Origin: Candidatus Latescibacterota bacterium
GTDB lineage: Bacteria; JAAXHH01; JACQVL01
Direction: 5' to 3'
DNA: 8,043 bases
NCBI GenBank assembly: GCA_016209865.1
Contig: JACQVL010000239.1
Span: 1-8,043, forward strand
The notes beneath the pieces are model-generated. The model searched no databases, had not been told where the DNA came from, and saw nothing but the letters and a program-made list of their open reading frames with translations. Position numbers and translations under genes: made by a program. This document shows, in pieces, positions 1-8,043 of the stretch. Positions within the stretch are counted from its first letter, which is position 1, and every line of letters begins with the position of its first letter.

Positions 1-1
1 G

Positions 2-1450
2 CTCGACCCGGCCCGCCGGCACGACCTGGGCGCGCTGAGCTTAGAGTACCTCACCCGGTCGAAGCGAGCGATCGAGGGTCTGATCGGGACGGGCAAGAAC
101 CAGCGGACGATGGCGGAGGTGCCGGTCGATGCGGCCAGCCGGTACGCCTGTGAGGACGCGGACTTGACCCTGCAGCTTCGCCGCGTCCTGGAGCCGCGCC
201 TGGACGAGCACGGCCTCAGGTTGCTCTTCGACCGGGTTGAGATGCCGCTTCTTCCGGTCCTGGCTGAGATGGAACTGGCGGGCATGGCGATCGATGTCCC
301 GTTCCTGGAGAAGATGTCCCAGCAGTTCGAGAACGACCTCGGCCAGTTGATGGGGGAGGTTTACCGCATCGCCGGGACGGAGTTCAACATCAACTCGACG
401 AAACAGCTTGGCGAGGTGCTGTTCGAGCGGCTCAAGCTGCCGCACGGGCGAAAGACGAAGACCGGGTATTCGACCGACGTGCGCGTCCTGGAAGAGCTCG
501 CCGTCGAACACGAGTTACCGCAGAAACTCTTAGACTACCGTCATCTGTCGAAGCTCAAATCGACGTACGTCGACGCTCTCCCCCGGCTGATCAACCCGCA
601 GACCGGGCGGGTGCACACCTCGTTCAACCAGACGGGCACGGAGACCGGGCGGCTCAGCTCGAACAACCCGAACCTGCAGAACATCCCCATCCGCACCGAC
701 GTCGGCCGGGAGATCCGCAAGGCGTTCATCCCCGGCGCCCCGTCTCACGTCCTCGTCTCCGCCGACTACTCGCAGGTCGAGCTCCGGTTGTTAGCCCATC
801 TGTCGGGGGATGAGCAACTCCAGGCGGCGTTCCGGACGGACGCCGACATCCATACGCGCACCGCCGCGCTCGTCTTCAACATCCCGGAGGGGATGGTGCC
901 GGCCGACCTGCGCCGGCAGGCGAAGGTGGTCAATTTCGGGATCATCTACGGGATGGGCCCGTACGGCCTGGCCCAGGCGCTGAAGATTTCGCACGAGGAC
1001 GCCAGGCGGTTCATCGAACGCTACTTCGCCCAGTACCCAGGGGTGCACGCCTACATCGAACATCTGAAGCAGGAAGCGCGGGAGCAGGGGTACGTCACGA
1101 CGCTGTTGGGCCGCCGGCGGTACATCCCGGAGATCACCAGCTCGAACTTCCAGCGCCGGGAGTTCGCCGAGCGCGCGGCCATCAACATGCCCGTCCAGGG
1201 GACGCAGGCCGACCTCATCAAGGTGGCGATGGTGCGCATCCATGATGAACTCCGCCGCCGTGGCCTGTCCGCGAAGCTCATCCTGCAGGTGCACGACGAG
1301 CTGGTGTTCGACGCGCCGTCAACCGAGGCGGCTGAGGTGTCCGAGATGGTAAAAACCCAGATGGAACGGGCGTTCGAGCCTGACATTCACCTGAGCGTCC
1401 CGATCAAGGCCGAGGTCGGCGTCGGGAAAGACTGGCTGGAAGCGCATTAA
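2..1450 (+). CDS. polA: DNA polymerase I, C-terminal part (5' end outside window)
   Basis: Family A DNA polymerase, which fills gaps in repair and replaces Okazaki primers. The reading frame is open from base 2, so the true start, the 5'-3' nuclease domain and most of the 3'-5' exonuclease domain lie upstream; 482 residues are visible. Fragment residues 44-58 hold the last exonuclease motif (YACEDAD; Y48 and D52 match the Tyr-x3-Asp of proofreading enzymes), so proofreading may be intact, though the earlier exonuclease motifs cannot be seen. The polymerase domain has motif A DYSQVELR (catalytic Asp at about 255), motif B RRQAKVVNFGIIYG (304-317; Lys308, Phe312, Tyr316) and motif C QVHDELVFD (Asp about 432). 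Phe312 is at the position where Phe rather than Tyr disfavours dideoxynucleotides (family knowledge). The gene ends with TAA just before an 8-bp repeat array and coaE. Confidence 0.97.
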   Translation, partial: LDPARRHDLGALSLEYLTRSKRAIEGLIGTGKNQRTMAEVPVDAASRYACEDADLTLQLRRVLEPRLDEHGLRLLFDRVEMPLLPVLAEMELAGMAIDVPFLEKMSQQFENDLGQLMGEVYRIAGTEFNINSTKQLGEVLFERLKLPHGRKTKTGYSTDVRVLEELAVEHELPQKLLDYRHLSKLKSTYVDALPRLINPQTGRVHTSFNQTGTETGRLSSNNPNLQNIPIRTDVGREIRKAFIPGAPSHVLVSADYSQVELRLLAHLSGDEQLQAAFRTDADIHTRTAALVFNIPEGMVPADLRRQAKVVNFGIIYGMGPYGLAQALKISHEDARRFIERYFAQYPGVHAYIEHLKQEAREQGYVTTLLGRRRYIPEITSSNFQRREFAERAAINMPVQGTQADLIKVAMVRIHDELRRRGLSAKLILQVHDELVFDAPSTEAAEVSEMVKTQMERAFEPDIHLSVPIKAEVGVGKDWLEAH

Positions 1451-1453
1451 ACA

Positions 1454-1503
1454 ACGTTTGCACGTTAGAACGTTCGAACGTTGAAACGTTAAAACGTGCT
1501 AAC
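1454..1503. repeat. 8-bp tandem repeat array, consensus ACGTTNNA
   Basis: ACGTT recurs exactly every 8 bases at 1454, 1462, 1470, 1478 and 1486, followed by a decayed copy (ACGTG) at 1494 and ACG at 1502. The five core bases are constant and the other three vary (TGC, AGA, CGA, GAA, AAA). Most units contain the palindrome AACGTT. The array fills the whole gap between the polA stop and the coaE start. It also supplies a spurious upstream GTG (1496) in the coaE frame. Confidence 0.9.
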
Positions 1504-1516
1504 GGGGGGTGCGGCC

Positions 1517-2140
1517 GTGGTGGTGGTCGGCGTCACCGGGGGGATCGCGACCGGCAAATCGGTCGTCTGCCGGGTGTTCGAGGAGCTCGGCGGAGTCGTG
1601 ATCAGCGCGGACCGGGTCGGGCACGAGGTGCTCGGCCGGGCTGACGTGCGCGACCGGCTGATCGAGGCGTTCGGGCGGGACATGCTCAGCCCGGACGGGA
1701 CGGTGGATCGCCGGACGCTGGGAAAGTTCGTCTTCGGCGACCCGGCGGCGCGGGAGCGATTGAATCAGATTGTCCATCCATCCCTGCTCGCCGAGGTCCG
1801 CCGGCAGATCGCGGCGCTGCGCGCGTCCGGGTTCGGCGGGGTCGTCGTCCTGGACGCGGCGCTCCTGATCGAATGGGGGCCGGCCGGCCTGGTCGACTAC
1901 GTCGTCGTCGTGACCGCCCCGGAAGACCAGCAGATGGCCCGTCTGGTGGAACAGAAGGGATTTTCCGCCGAGGAAGCGGCGCAACGGGTTGCCGCGCAGG
2001 TCTCGCCCCAGGAACGCCTCCGCTGGGCGGATGCGGTGATCAACGCCAGCGGGAGCGTCTCGGAGACGGAGCGCCAGGCGCGGGGGGTGTGGGAAGCGAT
2101 CAATTCCGGTTGTCATTCCCGCGAAAGCGGGAATCTATGA
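1517..2140 (+). CDS. coaE: Dephospho-CoA kinase
   Basis: Catalyses the last step of coenzyme A synthesis, ATP-dependent phosphorylation of the 3'-hydroxyl of dephospho-CoA, in the cytosol. With the GTG at 1517 the protein is 207 aa, normal for the family. It opens with the P-loop GVTGGIATGKS (residues 5-15). Other conserved blocks are ISADRVGHEV, RERLNQIVHP, DAALLIEWG (the usual D-x-x-L-L-x-E) and the C-terminal ADAVINASGS, which varies from the common I-D-N-S-G. I chose 1517 because GGGGGG at 1504-1509 is a plausible ribosome site 7 bases upstream and the P-loop then lies at its usual distance from the N-terminus. The in-frame GTG at 1496 lies inside the 8-bp repeat. The last ten or so residues (CHSRESGNL) are encoded by an inserted hairpin repeat, so the tail is not ancestral. 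Probably co-transcribed with polA and the barrel gene, 13 bases downstream. Confidence 0.95.
   Translation: MVVVGVTGGIATGKSVVCRVFEELGGVVISADRVGHEVLGRADVRDRLIEAFGRDMLSPDGTVDRRTLGKFVFGDPAARERLNQIVHPSLLAEVRRQIAALRASGFGGVVVLDAALLIEWGPAGLVDYVVVVTAPEDQQMARLVEQKGFSAEEAAQRVAAQVSPQERLRWADAVINASGSVSETERQARGVWEAINSGCHSRESGNL
2112..2137. repeat. Short palindromic repeat in the coaE tail
   Basis: ATTCCCGC (2115-2122), loop GAAA (2123-2126) and GCGGGAAT (2127-2134) form a perfect 8-bp stem with a GNRA-type tetraloop, preceded by TGTC and followed by CT. From memory this matches a very widespread bacterial repeat (TCATTCCCGCGAAAGCGGGAATC) that gives HSRESGNL or FPRKRES peptides when translated. Here it encodes the C-terminus of CoaE and ends just before the stop codon. 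There is no T-tract, so it is not a typical intrinsic terminator. Confidence 0.85.
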
Positions 2141-2142
2141 AC

Positions 2143-2149
2143 AAGGAGG
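2143..2149 (+). promoter_or_regulatory. Ribosome binding site of the barrel gene
   Basis: AAGGAGG lies 4 bases before the ATG at 2154 and just after the coaE stop. This is the strongest Shine-Dalgarno match on the plus strand here. It fixes the start of the barrel gene despite its unusual N-terminal coding sequence. Confidence 0.85.
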
Positions 2150-2153
2150 CGGC

Positions 2154-2966
2154 ATGACCGGCCTGCTGGAACGGCTACGACAATTCTCTGCTTTTCTTTC
2201 ACTCTTCATTCTTCACTCCTCACTCTTCGCTCTTTCGACCGCGTCCGCTCAAACGCCCGCGGTCCCGCAACACGAGGAGCCGCCGCCGCAGCAACTCATC
2301 GACCTGCCGACGGCGGGGGTGTTGCCGAAAGGCCATACCAGCCTGACCCTGCGGGTGTTCTCGAACGGGGGACTGTTGGGCGAGCTGTCCGCGGGCGTGC
2401 TGGAGCACCTCGCGCTCGGCTTGTCGTTCGGCGGGGAGAACATCATCGGGACGGGGAAGGTGACCTGGAACCCCCGGCCGGAGGTGGCCATCAAGTATCA
2501 ACTGATCGAGGAGGACGAGCATTTCCCCGCCATCGCGATCGGGTTCGACTCCCAGGGGCTTGGCCGGTACGATGATGTTCTCGACCGGTATCAGATCAAA
2601 TCGAGGGGGTTTTACGGGGTGGCCAGCCGGAATTTCGCGTTCTTGGGAACGCTCGGCCTGCACGCCGGGGCGAACTACAGCCTGGAGAATACGGATGCGA
2701 GCGGGCGGTTCGACCTGTTCGTCGGGGCGGACAAATCGATCAACCCCAACCTGACCGTGCTGGGAGAGTATGATTTTGCGATGAATGATAACAGAGCACG
2801 GGCGGCCGGCTATGGCCGGAAGCGAGGGTATTTCAACGCCGGTGTCCGGTTGATGGTCGGCGGACGGTTGGGGATCGAGTTCGACCTCCGCAACCTGTTC
2901 GATAATCGCGTGGGGACGAGCGCGCCGTCGCGGGAATTGAAAATTTTGTACGTGGAACCGTGGTAG
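2154..2966 (+). CDS. Predicted outer-membrane beta-barrel protein with signal peptide (YjbH-like style)
   Basis: A 270-aa protein with no assigned function. Residues 1-33 look like a Sec signal peptide: a basic start (ERLR), a hydrophobic core of Leu/Phe/Ser and a likely cut after TASA. A short Pro/Gln/Glu-rich segment follows, then DLPTAGVLPKGH. The rest is a run of amphipathic strands rich in Gly and aromatic residues (LTLRVFSNGGLLGE, LALGLSFGGENIIG, FPAIAIGFDSQG, GFYGVASRNFAF, FDLFVGADKSINP). It ends ILYVEPW, a terminal aromatic as expected of a barrel folded by the BAM machinery. The style recalls YjbH-domain proteins common in candidate-phylum genomes; that is from memory. About 12 strands would fit, but I cannot model it. 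The core of the signal peptide is encoded by a 7-bp tandem repeat (2200-2234). It lies 13 bases downstream of coaE with its own strong ribosome site. The stop codon lies inside a 28-bp palindrome. Confidence 0.8.
   Translation: MTGLLERLRQFSAFLSLFILHSSLFALSTASAQTPAVPQHEEPPPQQLIDLPTAGVLPKGHTSLTLRVFSNGGLLGELSAGVLEHLALGLSFGGENIIGTGKVTWNPRPEVAIKYQLIEEDEHFPAIAIGFDSQGLGRYDDVLDRYQIKSRGFYGVASRNFAFLGTLGLHAGANYSLENTDASGRFDLFVGADKSINPNLTVLGEYDFAMNDNRARAAGYGRKRGYFNAGVRLMVGGRLGIEFDLRNLFDNRVGTSAPSRELKILYVEPW
2200..2234 (+). repeat. 7-bp tandem repeat (CACTCTT x5) inside the signal-peptide coding sequence
   Basis: Five adjacent heptamers: CACTCTT, CATTCTT, CACTCCT, CACTCTT and CGCTCTT. The tract is pyrimidine-rich and clearly poorer in G than its surroundings. 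Because 7 is not a multiple of 3, translation shows a 7-residue period (SLFILHS then SLFALS). Gain or loss of a single unit would shift the frame. The copies are imperfect, so slippage today may be slow. Confidence 0.9.
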
Positions 2967-2990
2967 GGGCGCACGATCGTGCGCCCCTAC
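2963..2990. repeat. Perfect 28-bp palindrome between convergent genes (possible bidirectional terminator)
   Basis: The half-site GTAGGGGCGCACGA is followed directly by its exact reverse complement with no spacer, giving 14 complementary pairs. It contains the TAG stop of the barrel gene (2964-2966) and nearly fills the 30-base gap to the thioredoxin stop codon (2997-2999). The position suits a two-way transcription stop, but neither side has a clear T-tract. It also resembles dispersed GTAGGGGCG...CGCCCCTAC elements that I recall from many genomes. As RNA it would fold with the central few bases as the loop. Confidence 0.85.
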
Positions 2991-2996
2991 GGGGTC

Positions 2997-3326
2997 TTAT
3001 GCCGCTAAGACAGCCTCGATCTTCGCCGCCAGATGCCGTTTCGGCGCCGTCCCGATGATCCGGTCGACTTCTGTCCCGCCCTTGAAGATCACCAGACTCG
3101 GAATACTCCGGATGCCGAACTGCGTCGCGGTCTTGATGTTCTCATCCACATCCAGCTTGACCACCTTCAGCCGGCCCTCGTACTCGCCCGCCAACTCCTC
3201 GACGATCGGGGCGATCATCTTGCAGGGCCCGCACCAGACCGCCCAGAAATCGACCAGCACAGGGGTCGAACTCTTCAAGACCTGGCTCTCAAAATCATTG
3301 TCTGTCACTTCTGTCAGATGCGCCAT
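2997..3326 (-). CDS. trxA: Thioredoxin
   Basis: A 109-aa cytosolic thiol-disulfide oxidoreductase, full length for thioredoxin 1. The active site WCGPC is at 31-35 (Cys32, Cys35), preceded by the buried acid Asp26 and by Trp28. Lys57 and the cis-proline in IRSIPS (Pro76) are also in place, so numbering is nearly the same as in the E. coli protein. There is no signal peptide. The ATG at 3326 is supported by AAAGGAG (plus strand 3336-3342) 9 bases upstream. The gene lies 85 bases downstream of arsR on the same strand, and I see no convincing separate promoter in the gap. ArsR control of thioredoxin through read-through is therefore likely, though inferred. Its stop sits 7 bases from the 28-bp palindrome. 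Confidence 0.97.
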   Translation of the reverse strand: MAHLTEVTDNDFESQVLKSSTPVLVDFWAVWCGPCKMIAPIVEELAGEYEGRLKVVKLDVDENIKTATQFGIRSIPSLVIFKGGTEVDRIIGTAPKRHLAAKIEAVLAA

Positions 3327-3411
3327 GAACCGATGCTCCTTTCGTGGACAACGTGTCCGAGACCGACGGTCTACGACGACGTGATGTCCTGGCGTGGTGA
3401 ACGTGTTGCGT

Positions 3412-3693
3412 TCAAGGTTGAGGGGCAGCGCTCAGGGACTCCAGCACCCGCACCACGCGCGGGTCTCTGATCGAATAGCAGATCCGGTTCCCCTCCCGGC
3501 AGCACGAGACGACGCCCGTGTTCCGTAAGATCGCTAAATGCTGGGACAGGTTCGCCTGCTGGAGGTCGATCAGTTCCCCCAGGCTTTTGACGCACACCCG
3601 CTTTCGCTTCAGAATCTCGACGATCCGGAGGCGAGTCGGGTGGGCCAACGCTTTCAGCAACTGCGCGTGCGCCTCAAAGTCCGTGTCGGGCAT
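3412..3693 (-). CDS. ArsR/SmtB-family transcriptional repressor
   Basis: A 93-aa winged-helix DNA-binding protein. LLKALAHPTRLRIVEIL (12-28) is the family signature, followed by the recognition-helix region LQQANLSQHLAILRNTG (44-60) and the wing with REGNRICYSI (66-75). The start at 3693 gives MPDTDFEAHAQLL, a normal family N-terminus, with GAGG a short way upstream. An earlier in-frame ATG at 3738 has no ribosome site and falls inside the predicted operator. Cysteines are at 34, 64, 65 and 72. Cys34 aligns with the first Cys of the ArsR CxC metal site, but the second is replaced (CVK), so classical arsenite binding looks incomplete. The Cys64-Cys65 pair in the wing is unusual. The gene precedes trxA and has a sigma70-like promoter plus dyad upstream, which suggests autoregulation and a thiol or redox signal. 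The ligand is unknown. Confidence 0.92.
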   Translation of the reverse strand: MPDTDFEAHAQLLKALAHPTRLRIVEILKRKRVCVKSLGELIDLQQANLSQHLAILRNTGVVSCCREGNRICYSIRDPRVVRVLESLSAAPQP

Positions 3694-3726
3694 CGCACCC
3701 CTCGATCCGCATACCGCGAGTTTGAG

Positions 3727-3746
3727 ATATTCAAACATTCGAATAT
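3727..3746. promoter_or_regulatory. Dyad operator ATATTC-N8-GAATAT upstream of arsR
   Basis: ATATTC (3727-3732) and GAATAT (3741-3746) form a perfect 6-bp dyad with an 8-base spacer. It covers roughly +4 to +23 relative to the predicted arsR transcription start, where bound repressor would block transcription. The inner part is ATTC-N8-GAAT, which as I recall is the recognition sequence reported for the persulfide-sensing ArsR-family repressor SqrR. A second overlapping palindrome, GAATATTC, lies at 3741-3748. Confidence 0.65.
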
Positions 3747-3755
3747 TCTAATATC

Positions 3756-3783
3756 AATATAATCTTCGCCACCCCCCTGTCAA
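3756..3783 (-). promoter_or_regulatory. Sigma70-type promoter for arsR-trxA
   Basis: On the minus strand TTGACA (plus 3778-3783) is followed after 16 bases by TATATT (plus 3756-3761). That is a perfect -35 and a -10 matching at five of six positions. The predicted start is near 3749, giving a leader of about 55 bases before the arsR ATG. The -35 box overlaps the stop codon of the upstream sigma54 activator gene (3780-3782). Confidence 0.7.
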
Positions 3784-5327
3784 GGGGTTTTTTCACCCCT
3801 CTCCGTCAGTCCATACTTTTCGAGCTTGCGGTACAGCGTCCGGACGCCGATGCCCAGGGCTTTGGCCACCTTCTCCCGATGGCCGTGGTAGACTTCAAGC
3901 GCGTTGCGGATCATCTCCCGTTCGACGTCATCCATCTTCCCCACGACCGGCCGGGCATCCCCCGGCTCGACGGGGGTGAGCATCCGCGGCTCTGGCCGGG
4001 ATGCGTCAGACGGCACCACAAACTGGCCGGGCAGGGAGAGCGGGAGGCGGTCCTGCAGGGCCGTCCGGACCTCCGCCCGCAGGTCATCGATGTCCGCCCG
4101 GATGGCCAGCAGCGCCTTGTAGATCAACTCCCGCTCGACCTCATCCCGGCTCCGGTTGACCGCCACCGGGAGGGATCGATCCATGACCGGACTCCGGGAG
4201 ATCGACTCAGGCAGATCCTCGACCCGGACTTTGCCGCGTCCGTTCATGGTAATGACCAGACTCTCGATCAGGTTCCGGATTTCTCGCACATTTCCCGGCC
4301 ATTCGTAGTCGATCAGCCAGGCCATCGCCTCCGCCGTGAACCCGGCGAACGGCACCTGATGCTTCTGCGTCGCCTCCGCCACGAAATGGTCGATCAGCCG
4401 GGGAATATCGTCCCGCCGCTCCCGCAGGGGCGGGAGGTGGATCGTGACCACCTTCAGCCGGTAGTACAGGTCGCGGCGGAACGTCCCGTTCCGGATCGCC
4501 TCCTCCAGGTCCTTGTTCGTCGCCGCGATCACCCGGACGTCCGCGTGGACCTGCTCGCTCCCCCCGACCCGCATGAACCGCTGCTGTTCGAGCACCCGGA
4601 GGAGTTTCACCTGGGTCGCTAACGGCATCTCCCCGACTTCGTCTAAGAAGAGCGTCCCGTCGTCGGCTAACTCGAAAAACCCCTTGCGCCGGCCGGTCGC
4701 CCCGGTGAACGCGCCCCGCTCATGGCCGAACAACTCGCTCTCTAAGATCCCCTCGGCGATGGCCGCGCAGTTGACCGGGATGAACGGCCCGTTCCGCCGG
4801 GTACTGTGCTCATGGATCGCCCGGGCGATCACGTCTTTCCCCGTCCCGCTCTCCCCGACGATCAGGACGAGAATCTGCGTCGGCGCGACCTGGAGCACCT
4901 GCTCCATCACCTGGATCATCTTCTCGTTTTTGCCGATGAACTGGAATTCGCGCAGGAACTGCTGGCGCATCTGGAGGACGCGCACTTTGTCGAGGAGTTC
5001 CGCCGGGTCGACCGGCTTCTCGGCGTAGTCGTCCACGCCCTGTCGGAGCGCCTGGGCGGCCGACTGTCCCCGCCGCTGCCGGGTGGTGAGGATCACGTCG
5101 CAGTCGGGGTTCTTCTTCTTCAGCGTCCGCAACAGCCGCTCCGGTTGGATGTCGGTCAGCCCCAGGTCGAGCAGGATCAGGTCGGGCGTTGCCTCCCGCA
5201 TGACCTGGAGCGCCGCCGTCCCGTCCACCGCTTCCAGGACGGTGTACCCTTCCGGCCGGAGCGTCTCCGCCACCAGCCGCCGGCTATCCTGTTCGCCGTC
5301 GATGACGAGGATCGTCCAGGGGTTCAA
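3780..5327 (-). CDS. Sigma54-dependent response regulator (NtrC family), 515 aa
   Basis: A transcription activator that uses ATP hydrolysis to open sigma54-RNA polymerase complexes. Residues 1-120 are a receiver domain with the phospho-acceptor Asp54, Thr81/Thr82 and Lys104. The usual second acid after Asp10 is Gly11 (VIDGEQD). The AAA+ domain (about 130-376) has Walker A GESGTGKD (158-165), the sigma54-contact loop GAFTGA (205-210), Walker B TLFLDEVGE (225-233), arginines in FRRDLYYRL and WPGNVREI (343-350). A long linker (377-464) contains DEVERELIYKALLAIR, then a Fis-type helix-turn-helix VAKALGIGVRTLYRKLEKYGL (487-507). The start is TTG at 5327, supported by AAGGAG (plus 5335-5340) 7 bases upstream. 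It overlaps the upstream 561-aa activator by 44 bp, so the two are translationally coupled. No sensor kinase is in the window and the target genes are unknown. Confidence 0.95.
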   Translation of the reverse strand: MNPWTILVIDGEQDSRRLVAETLRPEGYTVLEAVDGTAALQVMREATPDLILLDLGLTDIQPERLLRTLKKKNPDCDVILTTRQRRGQSAAQALRQGVDDYAEKPVDPAELLDKVRVLQMRQQFLREFQFIGKNEKMIQVMEQVLQVAPTQILVLIVGESGTGKDVIARAIHEHSTRRNGPFIPVNCAAIAEGILESELFGHERGAFTGATGRRKGFFELADDGTLFLDEVGEMPLATQVKLLRVLEQQRFMRVGGSEQVHADVRVIAATNKDLEEAIRNGTFRRDLYYRLKVVTIHLPPLRERRDDIPRLIDHFVAEATQKHQVPFAGFTAEAMAWLIDYEWPGNVREIRNLIESLVITMNGRGKVRVEDLPESISRSPVMDRSLPVAVNRSRDEVERELIYKALLAIRADIDDLRAEVRTALQDRLPLSLPGQFVVPSDASRPEPRMLTPVEPGDARPVVGKMDDVEREMIRNALEVYHGHREKVAKALGIGVRTLYRKLEKYGLTERGEKTP

Positions 5328-6969
5328 TGTCGTACTCCTTGATCTTCCTGAACAGCGTCCGCAGCCCGATCTTCAGCGTCCGCGCCGTTTTCGCCTTGTT
5401 CCCGCCGCAGGCATCTAAGGTGGCCGCGATGAGCGCCCGCTCCGCTGCCTCCATCGACATCCCGACCCGGATGTCAACCGGGGAACGGGCATCCGGTCGC
5501 TCCGGCGGCGACGGCGACCGGATGAACTCGGTCGGGATGTCCGGGACGTCCAGCACCTCCCGGTCGGCTAAGAGCACCATCGTCTCGATGCACCGGCGGA
5601 GCGCCCGGCCATTCCCCGTCCAGTCGGCCGCGCAGAGCCGTCGCACCGCCTCCTCCGTGATGCCCCGGACGGCGACCCCACGGCGCGCCGCCGCGGTCGT
5701 GACGAGGGAGCGCATCAGGTCGGGGGACAGCGGTTCAGTGAGCGTGTCTGCCCGCAGCACCGTCCGGTCGATCAGCACATCCCGGATGTACACCGGCACG
5801 TCATCGACGTCCAGCGCCGGCCCCGACGCCATGACGATCATGCTCTCGATGCAGTTCTCCAGCTCCCGGACGTTCCCCGGCCAGTGGTACGCGGACAGGC
5901 GGTCGAGCGCCCCCTTGCTGATTCGCGCGACGGGCTTCCCGTTCCGTTCGCTGAACCGCCGGATGAACGCCTCGATCAACAGCGGCAAGTCCTCTTTCCG
6001 TTCCCGGAGCGGCGGCACGGTCAGCGTGACCACCTTCAGCCGGTAGTACAGGTCTTCCCGGAACCGCCCACGGACGACCTCCTCCTCCAGGTTCCGGTGG
6101 GTCGCCGCGATCAGCCGGACGTCCGTCCGGAGCGTCCGGTTCCCCCCGACCCGCTCGAACTCCCGTTCCTGCAGCACCCGCAGGAGCTTGATCTGGATGG
6201 TGGGAGTGAGTTCGCCCACCTCGTCGAGGAACAGCGTCCCGCCGTCGGCCAACTCGAACCGCCCCTTGCGCAGCGCGACCGCCCCGGTGAACGCCCCGCG
6301 CTCATGGCCGAACAGCTCGCTCTCGATCACCCCCTCGGAGAGCGCCCCGCACGACAGCCGGACGAACGGCTTCTCCTTCCGGCTGCTGTTCATGTGGATC
6401 GCATGGGCGACCAGCTCCTTGCCCGTCCCGCTCTCCCCGTAGATCAAAACAGTCGCCAGGGTGTCCGCGATCTGGGCGACCTGCTCGTAGATGCGCTGCA
6501 TCGCCGCCGACTTGCCGATGATGTTCTGGAAGCCGTACCGGATCTCGAGCTGACGGTGGAGGTCGAGGTTCTCCTGGACGATGCGCTGGCGGTCGAGAAT
6601 CTTCTCGATCTCCGCCGCTAACTTTTCCGTCGGCACCGGCCGCTCGAGGACGTCGTACGCCCCTTCCTGCATCGCACCCACCGCCGCCTCGATCCGGCCA
6701 GGGCCGGTCTGCCCGGTGATCATCACCACCCCGATCCCCGGACTCTTCCGCAGGGCGACCTCCATCAGTCGCATCCCGTCGAGACCGGGGCCGGACAGGT
6801 CGGTGACGAGGACGTTGACCGGCTCGGATTCCAGGACGTTCAACGCCTGATCCTCGGATTCGACGGCGATCACCCGGTATCCCAGCCGATCCAGGCTGTA
6901 CGCGATCTCGTCCCGGTCGCGTTTCGTCTGCTCGACGAGCAGAATGGCTGCAGGTTGATGGGCGTTCAT
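5284..6969 (-). CDS. Sigma54-dependent response regulator (NtrC family), 561 aa, with duplicated AAA+ lid
   Basis: Second sigma54 activator. The receiver domain (1-125) has Asp57 as phospho-acceptor and Thr85. The N-terminal acid pair reads Glu13-Gln14 and the normally invariant Lys of the KP motif is Arg110 (LERPVP), so the pocket is atypical. The AAA+ domain has Walker A GESGTGKE (178-185), GAFTGA (225-230), Walker B TLFLDEVGE (245-253), FREDLYYRL (303-311) and WPGNVREL (363-370). Residues 437-479 repeat 350-392 without gaps (20 of 43 identical by eye), including a decayed WTGNGRAL. A Fis-type helix-turn-helix ends the protein (about 507-547: KTARTLKIGLRTLFRKIKEY). The ATG at 6969 gives a normal receiver start but has no clear Shine-Dalgarno sequence; the leader there is a CCCC-rich 7-bp repeat. 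First gene of the minus-strand block. Confidence 0.94.
   Translation of the reverse strand: MNAHQPAAILLVEQTKRDRDEIAYSLDRLGYRVIAVESEDQALNVLESEPVNVLVTDLSGPGLDGMRLMEVALRKSPGIGVVMITGQTGPGRIEAAVGAMQEGAYDVLERPVPTEKLAAEIEKILDRQRIVQENLDLHRQLEIRYGFQNIIGKSAAMQRIYEQVAQIADTLATVLIYGESGTGKELVAHAIHMNSSRKEKPFVRLSCGALSEGVIESELFGHERGAFTGAVALRKGRFELADGGTLFLDEVGELTPTIQIKLLRVLQEREFERVGGNRTLRTDVRLIAATHRNLEEEVVRGRFREDLYYRLKVVTLTVPPLRERKEDLPLLIEAFIRRFSERNGKPVARISKGALDRLSAYHWPGNVRELENCIESMIVMASGPALDVDDVPVYIRDVLIDRTVLRADTLTEPLSPDLMRSLVTTAAARRGVAVRGITEEAVRRLCAADWTGNGRALRRCIETMVLLADREVLDVPDIPTEFIRSPSPPERPDARSPVDIRVGMSMEAAERALIAATLDACGGNKAKTARTLKIGLRTLFRKIKEYDIEPLDDPRHRRRTG
5335..5340 (-). promoter_or_regulatory. Ribosome binding site deciding a TTG start
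   Basis: AAGGAG on the minus strand lies 7 bases before the TTG at 5327, within the coding sequence of the upstream activator (it codes for part of IKEYD). It is the reason to place the start of the 515-aa activator here and to infer coupled translation. Confidence 0.75.
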
Positions 6970-6976
6970 AGAAAGA

Positions 6977-7000
6977 CAGGGGTCAGGGGTCAGGGGTCAG
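6977..7000. repeat. 7-bp tandem repeat (CAGGGGT x3)
   Basis: Three exact copies of CAGGGGT plus CAG, starting 8 bases upstream of the ATG of the 561-aa activator (on the mRNA strand TGACCCC x3). The array takes the place where a ribosome site would normally be. Confidence 0.9.
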
Positions 7001-7018
7001 TAATACAGCCTACCATGC

Positions 7019-7047
7019 AACTTACGGACAATCTGCCATTCTGTCAA
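7019..7047 (-). promoter_or_regulatory. Possible promoter for the sigma54 activator pair
   Basis: TTGACA (plus 7042-7047) is followed after 17 bases by TAAGTT (plus 7019-7024) on the minus strand. The -35 is perfect and the -10 is weak (three of six). The implied transcript would start near 7012 and carry the TGACCCC repeat in its leader. Confidence 0.4.
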
Positions 7048-7072
7048 GTCTCTCGCAGGTGAGAAAAAAAGG

Positions 7073-7101
7073 TTGCGCGCCGAATGGTTGTACGGTAGAA
7101 T
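7073..7101 (+). promoter_or_regulatory. Possible promoter for the M16 peptidase
   Basis: TTGCGC (7073-7078), a 17-base spacer, then TAGAAT (7096-7101), which matches the -10 consensus at five of six positions. The -35 is poor beyond TTG. It lies back-to-back with the minus-strand candidate, as expected for a divergent intergenic region. Confidence 0.4.
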
Positions 7102-7127
7102 GACGGGATGTTGGACTGTTTTTTCAA

Positions 7128-7150
7128 TCCAAAATCCAAAATCCAAAATC
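7128..7150. repeat. 7-bp tandem repeat (TCCAAAA x3)
   Basis: Three exact copies of TCCAAAA plus TC, ending 9 bases before the ATG of the M16 peptidase. From memory this AATCCAAAATCC type of heptamer is widespread and gives ILDFGFWI peptides when read on the other strand. Confidence 0.9.
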
Positions 7151-7159
7151 GAGAACCCT

Positions 7160-8043
7160 ATGTCCTCCCAGACTCTCCCCCCTCCCATCGCCCGCTTCAG
7201 CGACGGGGTTGTACGGCGTGTGCTCCCCAACGGCCTGACCGTCCTGATCAAACCCAACCGGGTCGCCCCGGTCGTGGCCGTCGCGTCGTACGTGAAGGCG
7301 GGGTACTTCAACGAACCGGACGACCGGGCGGGACTGGCTCATCTGCTCGAACACATGTACTTCAAGGGATGCCGCAAGTATCCGGGTCCGGAAGACATCG
7401 GGATGGCCGTCGAAGCGGTCGGGGGCAACCTCAACGCCGGGACGATTTACGACTATACCTACTATTACTTCACCCTGCCGCGTGAGAGCTTCGAGAAAGG
7501 GGTCGAGATCCAGGCGGACGCCTTAGCTCACCCGCTGTTCGACCCGGACGAGCTGCGCCGGGAGGCGGAGGTCATCATCGAGGAGAGCAAGCGGAAGTAC
7601 GACAACCCGTCCGCATTCGCCGCCGAGAAGCTGTACGAACTGGCGTTCGACCGTCACTGGATGCGGCGGTGGCGGATCGGCAGCGACCGGGTGCTGCGGG
7701 CGATCACACGGGAGACTGTCGTCGATTTCTTCGCCTCGTCGTATCGTCCGGCGAACATGATCGTGGCTGTCGTCGGGTCTGTCGACCCGGACGCGGCGCT
7801 GAGCGTCATCGAGCGGGAGTTCGGGACGATCCCGGTGGGAACGGTTCACACGGAGACCTCACCCCCTGAACCGCCGCAGACCGCGTTGAAGTACCAGGAA
7901 TTGCGGGGGGACATCAATCAGGAGTACCTGGAGATCGGGTTCCACGCCCCCGGGGTGCTCGCGCCCGACACGGACGCGCTCGACTTAGCCGCCGCCATCA
8001 TCGGGCGCGGCCGGAGCGCCCGGCTCTACCAGCGCGTCAAGGA
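7160..8043 (+). CDS. M16-family zinc metallopeptidase, N-terminal part (3' end outside window)
   Basis: 294 codons are visible with no stop before the window edge. The zinc site is HLLEH at 61-65 (His61, Glu64 as catalytic base, His65). Glu142 lies 77 residues after His65, the classical HxxEH-x76-E spacing of pitrilysin and insulinase relatives. Glu135, seven residues earlier, is also conserved. Other family blocks are RRVLPNGLTVLI, VKAGYFNEPDDRAGLAHLLEH, VGGNLNAGT, and RPANMIVAVVGSVDPD near the end of the first subdomain. The second subdomain begins around NQEYLEIGFHAPG. This looks like a catalytically competent member that degrades peptides or processes proteins. No signal peptide is evident, so a cytosolic site is likely unless the start is wrong. 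The Shine-Dalgarno match before ATG 7160 is weak (GAGAA), and a 7-bp repeat lies just upstream. M16 genes often come in pairs, so a second subunit may follow. Confidence 0.95.
   Translation, partial: MSSQTLPPPIARFSDGVVRRVLPNGLTVLIKPNRVAPVVAVASYVKAGYFNEPDDRAGLAHLLEHMYFKGCRKYPGPEDIGMAVEAVGGNLNAGTIYDYTYYYFTLPRESFEKGVEIQADALAHPLFDPDELRREAEVIIEESKRKYDNPSAFAAEKLYELAFDRHWMRRWRIGSDRVLRAITRETVVDFFASSYRPANMIVAVVGSVDPDAALSVIEREFGTIPVGTVHTETSPPEPPQTALKYQELRGDINQEYLEIGFHAPGVLAPDTDALDLAAAIIGRGRSARLYQRVK

Follow-up and report, generated by a model that had tools for sequence, protein, structure and literature searches.

A Second, Diverged Lid Subdomain in an NtrC-Family Sigma54 Activator of Candidatus Latescibacterota and Its Relatives

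The Two-Lid Activator and Its Domains

The window analyzed here is a stretch of 8,043 nucleotides from a Candidatus Latescibacterota bacterium (GenBank assembly GCA_016209865.1, contig JACQVL010000239.1, positions 1 to 8,043). On its reverse strand it encodes an activator of sigma54 of 561 amino acids (aa) that carries, between the lid of its ATPase core and its DNA-binding domain, a second and diverged lid subdomain (lid 2). The protein and its domains are located as follows:

5284..6969 (-), NtrC-family sigma54 activator with two lids, 561 aa (open reading frame (ORF), Pfam domains, orthologues)
6607..6945 (-), receiver domain, residues 9-121 (PF00072, E 2.9e-13)
6022..6522 (-), AAA+ sigma54-interaction domain, residues 150-316 (PF00158, E 1.4e-71; motif table)
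5779..6006 (-), lid 1, residues 322-397 (PF25601; WPGNVREL with the sensor II Arg)
5503..5730 (-), lid 2, residues about 414-489, with the degenerate WTGNGRALRRC (PF25601, fold models, conservation)
5332..5454 (-), Fis-type helix-turn-helix (HTH), residues 506-546 (PF02954, E 8.1e-12)

By Pfam, the order is thus receiver, AAA+ core, lid 1, lid 2 and Fis-type HTH. The engine motifs of the window copy are intact (GESGTGKE, GAFTGA, GTLFLDEVGE, FREDLYYRL and WPGNVREL), and Walker A, Walker B and the arginine finger are all present according to PF00158 and the motif table. Lid 1 is the one that directly follows the core and holds the sensor II Arg, and its WPGNVR is invariant in the alignment of all 15 orthologues. 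Its sequence places it among the sigma54-type AAA+ enhancer-binding proteins of the NtrC family, which predicts that it drives promoter opening with ATP. Of the 16 genomes of the phylum, 14 had a match to sigma54 (PF04552), the window's own among them, and a scan of the window for sigma54 -24/-12 promoters gave matches no more frequent than chance. Besides its intact rpoN, genome G001 has a further sigma54 DNA-binding domain that is matched in two adjacent pieces and seems to be broken (G001:C194:8057-8528).

The Repeat Is a Complete Lid

The initial annotation, made from the sequence of the window, had aligned residues 350-392 (DNA 5794-5922) with residues 437-479 (DNA 5533-5661) without gaps, and its count of 20 identities in 43 residues proved exact; at the nucleotide level 83 of 129 positions of the two copies are identical. 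Smith-Waterman self-alignment of residues 241-400 against 401-500 scored 121, compared to a mean of 28.4 (standard deviation 4.9) and a maximum of 64 in 2000 shuffles. Additionally, the Pfam family AAA_lid_14 (PF25601) recognizes two stretches of the protein, and lid 2 alone reaches 51 bits (E 1.3e-13, profile positions 8-81 of 87) where the curated cut-off is 27 bits. The repeat is real and well beyond chance, a fortuitous similarity of the lids being ruled out by the shuffles and by Pfam; an artefact of this contig or a frameshift remnant is ruled out as well by the open frames of 15 genomes that share the two lids. The similarity over 43 residues therefore stands, but not the extent given to it: since the first helix of lid 2 (residues 416-430) also takes part in the repeat, what is repeated is a complete lid of about 75 residues (416-489 in Pfam).

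The fold of lid 2 was modelled in two ways. A single-sequence AlphaFold2 model arranged its helices like those of a lid, at moderate confidence (predicted local distance difference test score (pLDDT) of 70), although its structure matches were weak, the best being NtrX and the AAA+ protein Hda (Z 4.4). A second model, built with 51 lids of single-lid activators as the alignment, reached a pLDDT of 82.6 and matched NtrC1 (1ny5, Z 9.8, 82 residues aligned, root-mean-square deviation (rmsd) 3.0), ZraR (1ojl, Z 9.7, 83 aligned, rmsd 3.2), VpsR (7v2b, Z 9.7, 79 aligned, rmsd 2.5) and LuxO (5ep3, Z 9.7, 87 aligned, rmsd 3.5), nearly all of its top structural neighbours being NtrC-type activators. 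Because the alignment biases this second model toward a lid-like answer, the sequence profile carries more weight. A model in which residues 437-479 did not fold like a lid would have spoken against the proposal that this NtrC-type activator has a second, diverged lid; the segment was modelled as a lid, and Pfam and the fold models both uphold the proposal. Both its descent and its fold make lid 2 a lid, though probably not one that works in nucleotide sensing.

Distribution of the Two-Lid Plan

Orthologues of the two-lid activator were found in 14 genomes at about 63% identity, two of them partial and on broken contigs. Of the 16 genomes of the phylum, 15 were strongly matched by a query with the C-terminal part, and these 15 also matched a profile of the full two-lid protein over its whole length. 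They comprise the genome of the window, which belongs to family f1, and all 14 genomes of family f2. The exception is G015, a genome 85% complete from family f3 of the same order, in which the two candidates examined were both single-lid. The second copy is accordingly retained by homologues across two families, as the initial annotation had asked of a conserved subfamily.

A lid profile made from lids adjoining AAA+ cores detected lid 2 in 15 of 15 orthologues; when run over about 1,900 ORFs of the collected loci, it returned two lids for no ORFs but orthologues of the window activator, and a single lid for 185 others (repeats counted). A widespread but overlooked two-lid architecture was considered and rejected, since in none of 368 genomes from elsewhere in the domain did a match run through both lids among the seven best candidates scored for each. 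A DNA pattern of two W.GN motifs, also tried, hit the window and two other loci, both of which encode single-lid activators.

Constraint and Loss in Lid 2

Selection was estimated from the ratio of nonsynonymous to synonymous substitution rates (dN/dS), given as medians over 12 genomes of one genus. The AAA+ domain and lid 1 both stand at 0.07, the HTH at 0.11 and the receiver at 0.17; lid 2 stands at 0.26, the linker before the HTH at 0.39 and the linker between the lids at 0.63. Purifying selection thus acts on lid 2, which is a constrained domain, though less so than its neighbouring domains, and is flanked by linkers that form flexible tethers. Across the 15 orthologues it keeps 17 invariant columns, which include L-R-R-C, M and L-L-A (as M.LLA), L and D-I-P, and its hydrophobic core is kept.

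The helix that follows the sensor II Arg reads L-x-N in ordinary lids (the Asn in 131 of 146), whereas lid 2 always has L-R-R there. The initial annotation had noted that the second copy retains the Arg (GNGR), which is true of the window and of no other member: the sensor II position of lid 2 is G, A or deleted in 14 of 14 relatives. The sensor II Arg is thus not a trait of lid 2 in this family, nor is the Asn four residues on. Because the Arg is absent from all relatives, lid 2 is unlikely to be a normal nucleotide sensor.

The Tandem Partner and the Surrounding Genes

The two-lid gene overlaps a second activator gene by 44 bases, as the ORFs are called:

3780..5327 (-), second NtrC-family activator, 515 aa, one lid (ORF, Pfam)

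Pfam finds no second lid in this partner. The tandem recurs beside the two-lid gene in relatives as far as the contigs reach, while the outer neighbours differ: an M16 peptidase, ArsR and thioredoxin in the window, and acetamidase, dehydrogenase, FtsY and aminotransferase genes in relatives. The constancy of the pair amid different neighbours suggests that the two regulators work together. Elsewhere in the window, an ORF of 270 aa (2154-2966 (+)) has a signal-like N-terminus and is without a match in Pfam or NCBIfam.

In sequence and alignment, the receiver of the two-lid activator has its acidic pair reduced to VEQ and the usual conserved Lys replaced by Arg (ERPV). The N-terminal receiver of the partner (within 3780-5327 (-)) likewise has a reduced acidic pair (IDG). 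Judging from the reduced pairs, and from the Arg for Lys in the two-lid protein, phosphorylation of the receivers may be atypical or absent.

Loop 1 was compared between the window domain (6022-6522), the orthologues (L010-L023, L189 and L193) and the partners (L012-L023 and L191). It reads GAFTNA in the two-lid proteins of 12 relatives and GAFTDA in 11 tandem partners; GAFTGA is found in the two-lid protein of the window and in the partners of both the window and genome G014, the two-lid fragment of which has GAFSGA. In most relatives both tandem activators are thus changed in parallel at the same position of GAFTGA.

Origin of the Second Lid

Lid 2 forms a single clade on a long stem in a tree of lids, so the lid copy would most simply have arisen once, before families f1 and f2 split. 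The tree is built on 80 columns and weakly resolved, and the sister group of the clade is not resolved: lid 2 falls weakly beside the lid of an unrelated activator (L172, support 85/77) and not beside lid 1. The internal duplication proposed in the initial annotation is plausible. It is favoured by the motif C-I-E-x-M, which both lids have in common and which is otherwise confined to three lids of the set (L142, L173 and L184); proof is withheld by the tree and by a block alignment, in which lid 2, its linker and the HTH align as a unit with the C-terminal ends of activators that have one lid (identity up to 35-42%). This alignment makes a chimera possible: the C-terminal block of lid, linker and HTH would come from a different activator, and lid 2 would have arrived with that block or been fused to it. 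Such an origin, with which the grouping with L172 would agree, deserves serious consideration but is on balance rather doubtful, as the rarity of C-I-E-x-M outside these two lids speaks against it and the long branch of lid 2 and the few columns of the tree weaken the grouping.

Proposed Role of the Second Lid

We tentatively propose, with somewhat less than even confidence, that lid 2, an ancestral and non-catalytic copy of the lid, serves as a tethered protein-docking module. The lid subdomain would have been copied once, before the two families of the lineage split; lid 1 would still close the ATP site. Sequence, model and selection show that lid 2 lost the nucleotide-sensing residues and kept the lid fold, and that flexible linkers tether it to the ATPase ring on one side and to the DNA-binding domain on the other. 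There the ATP-blind spare lid might contact an AAA+ core of the ring to which it belongs, be this ring uniform or mixed with the co-encoded activator, and such contacts may tune the assembly or the restraint of the ring. The effect on ring assembly or docking that the initial annotation had suggested for a second lid is in this sense a reasonable possibility.

Several observations weigh against docking. Lid 2 evolves faster than all other folded domains of the protein by dN/dS; that of G014 is two residues shorter and its Trp is lost in two genomes, all of which is compatible with slow decay or with a spacer; and its net charge and much of its surface vary between species. In addition, the packing of a lid on the core of the neighbouring subunit is a general feature of AAA+ rings, and the cores named here as contacts of lid 2 are presumptive candidates.

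The main rival to a docking module is a folded spacer, which would set only the distance and the flexibility between the ring and the DNA-binding domain. The flanking linkers are unconserved and variable in length, the surface and charge of lid 2 differ between species as just described, and the remaining selection could act only on the hydrophobic core that folding needs. On the other hand, L-R-R-C is invariant in place of L-x-N, and two invariant arginines are improbable for folding alone; a mere spacer appears somewhat unlikely. A stronger form of the docking proposal would set these proteins apart as a class of their own among enhancer-binding proteins, with lid 2 docked on the AAA+ cores of the partner and the composition or the assembly of the ring set by the spare lid and not by the receiver alone; this is regarded as quite improbable. 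Least probable of all is a decaying remnant of the duplication that is losing its function, to which the fast evolution of lid 2, the loss of Trp and the GNVREL motif eroded everywhere would lend themselves, since lid 2 has an open frame in 15 of 15 orthologues from two families, a dN/dS well below 1 and below that of its own linkers, and 17 invariant columns.

Relation to Known Activators and Significance

NtrC1, ZraR, NtrX and AtoC share with the window protein a receiver, a GAFTGA AAA+ core, a lid with the sensor II Arg and a Fis-type HTH in the same order; they have one lid, whereas the window family adds an ATP-blind lid after lid 1, ahead of the linker to the HTH. In the open-access literature searched, no duplicated lid and no two-lid enhancer-binding protein was found. 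For the mixed ring proposed for the window pair, a precedent of two activators in one ring exists in HrpR and HrpS of Pseudomonas syringae, two enhancer-binding proteins that are required together and form mixed hexamers (PMC7057263). The window likewise encodes two activators, and in tandem, but mixed assembly is known for HrpR/HrpS and is a proposal for the window pair. Departures from GAFTGA are also known: GAFTDA is a natural variant in D. vulgaris (PMC4641369) and the NtrC of Caulobacter is without the motif (PMC10274813). Compared to these Desulfovibrio and Caulobacter proteins, the two-lid protein of the window retains GAFTGA, and the variants are seen in most of its relatives and their partners.

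A two-lid plan would add to the domain arrangements known for sigma54 activators. Lids belong to the moving machinery of AAA+ rings, and there is normally one per ATPase core. A catalytically silent second lid that is kept by a lineage is a natural test of roles of lids other than the sensing of ATP, as removing or swapping lid 2 would leave the engine intact.
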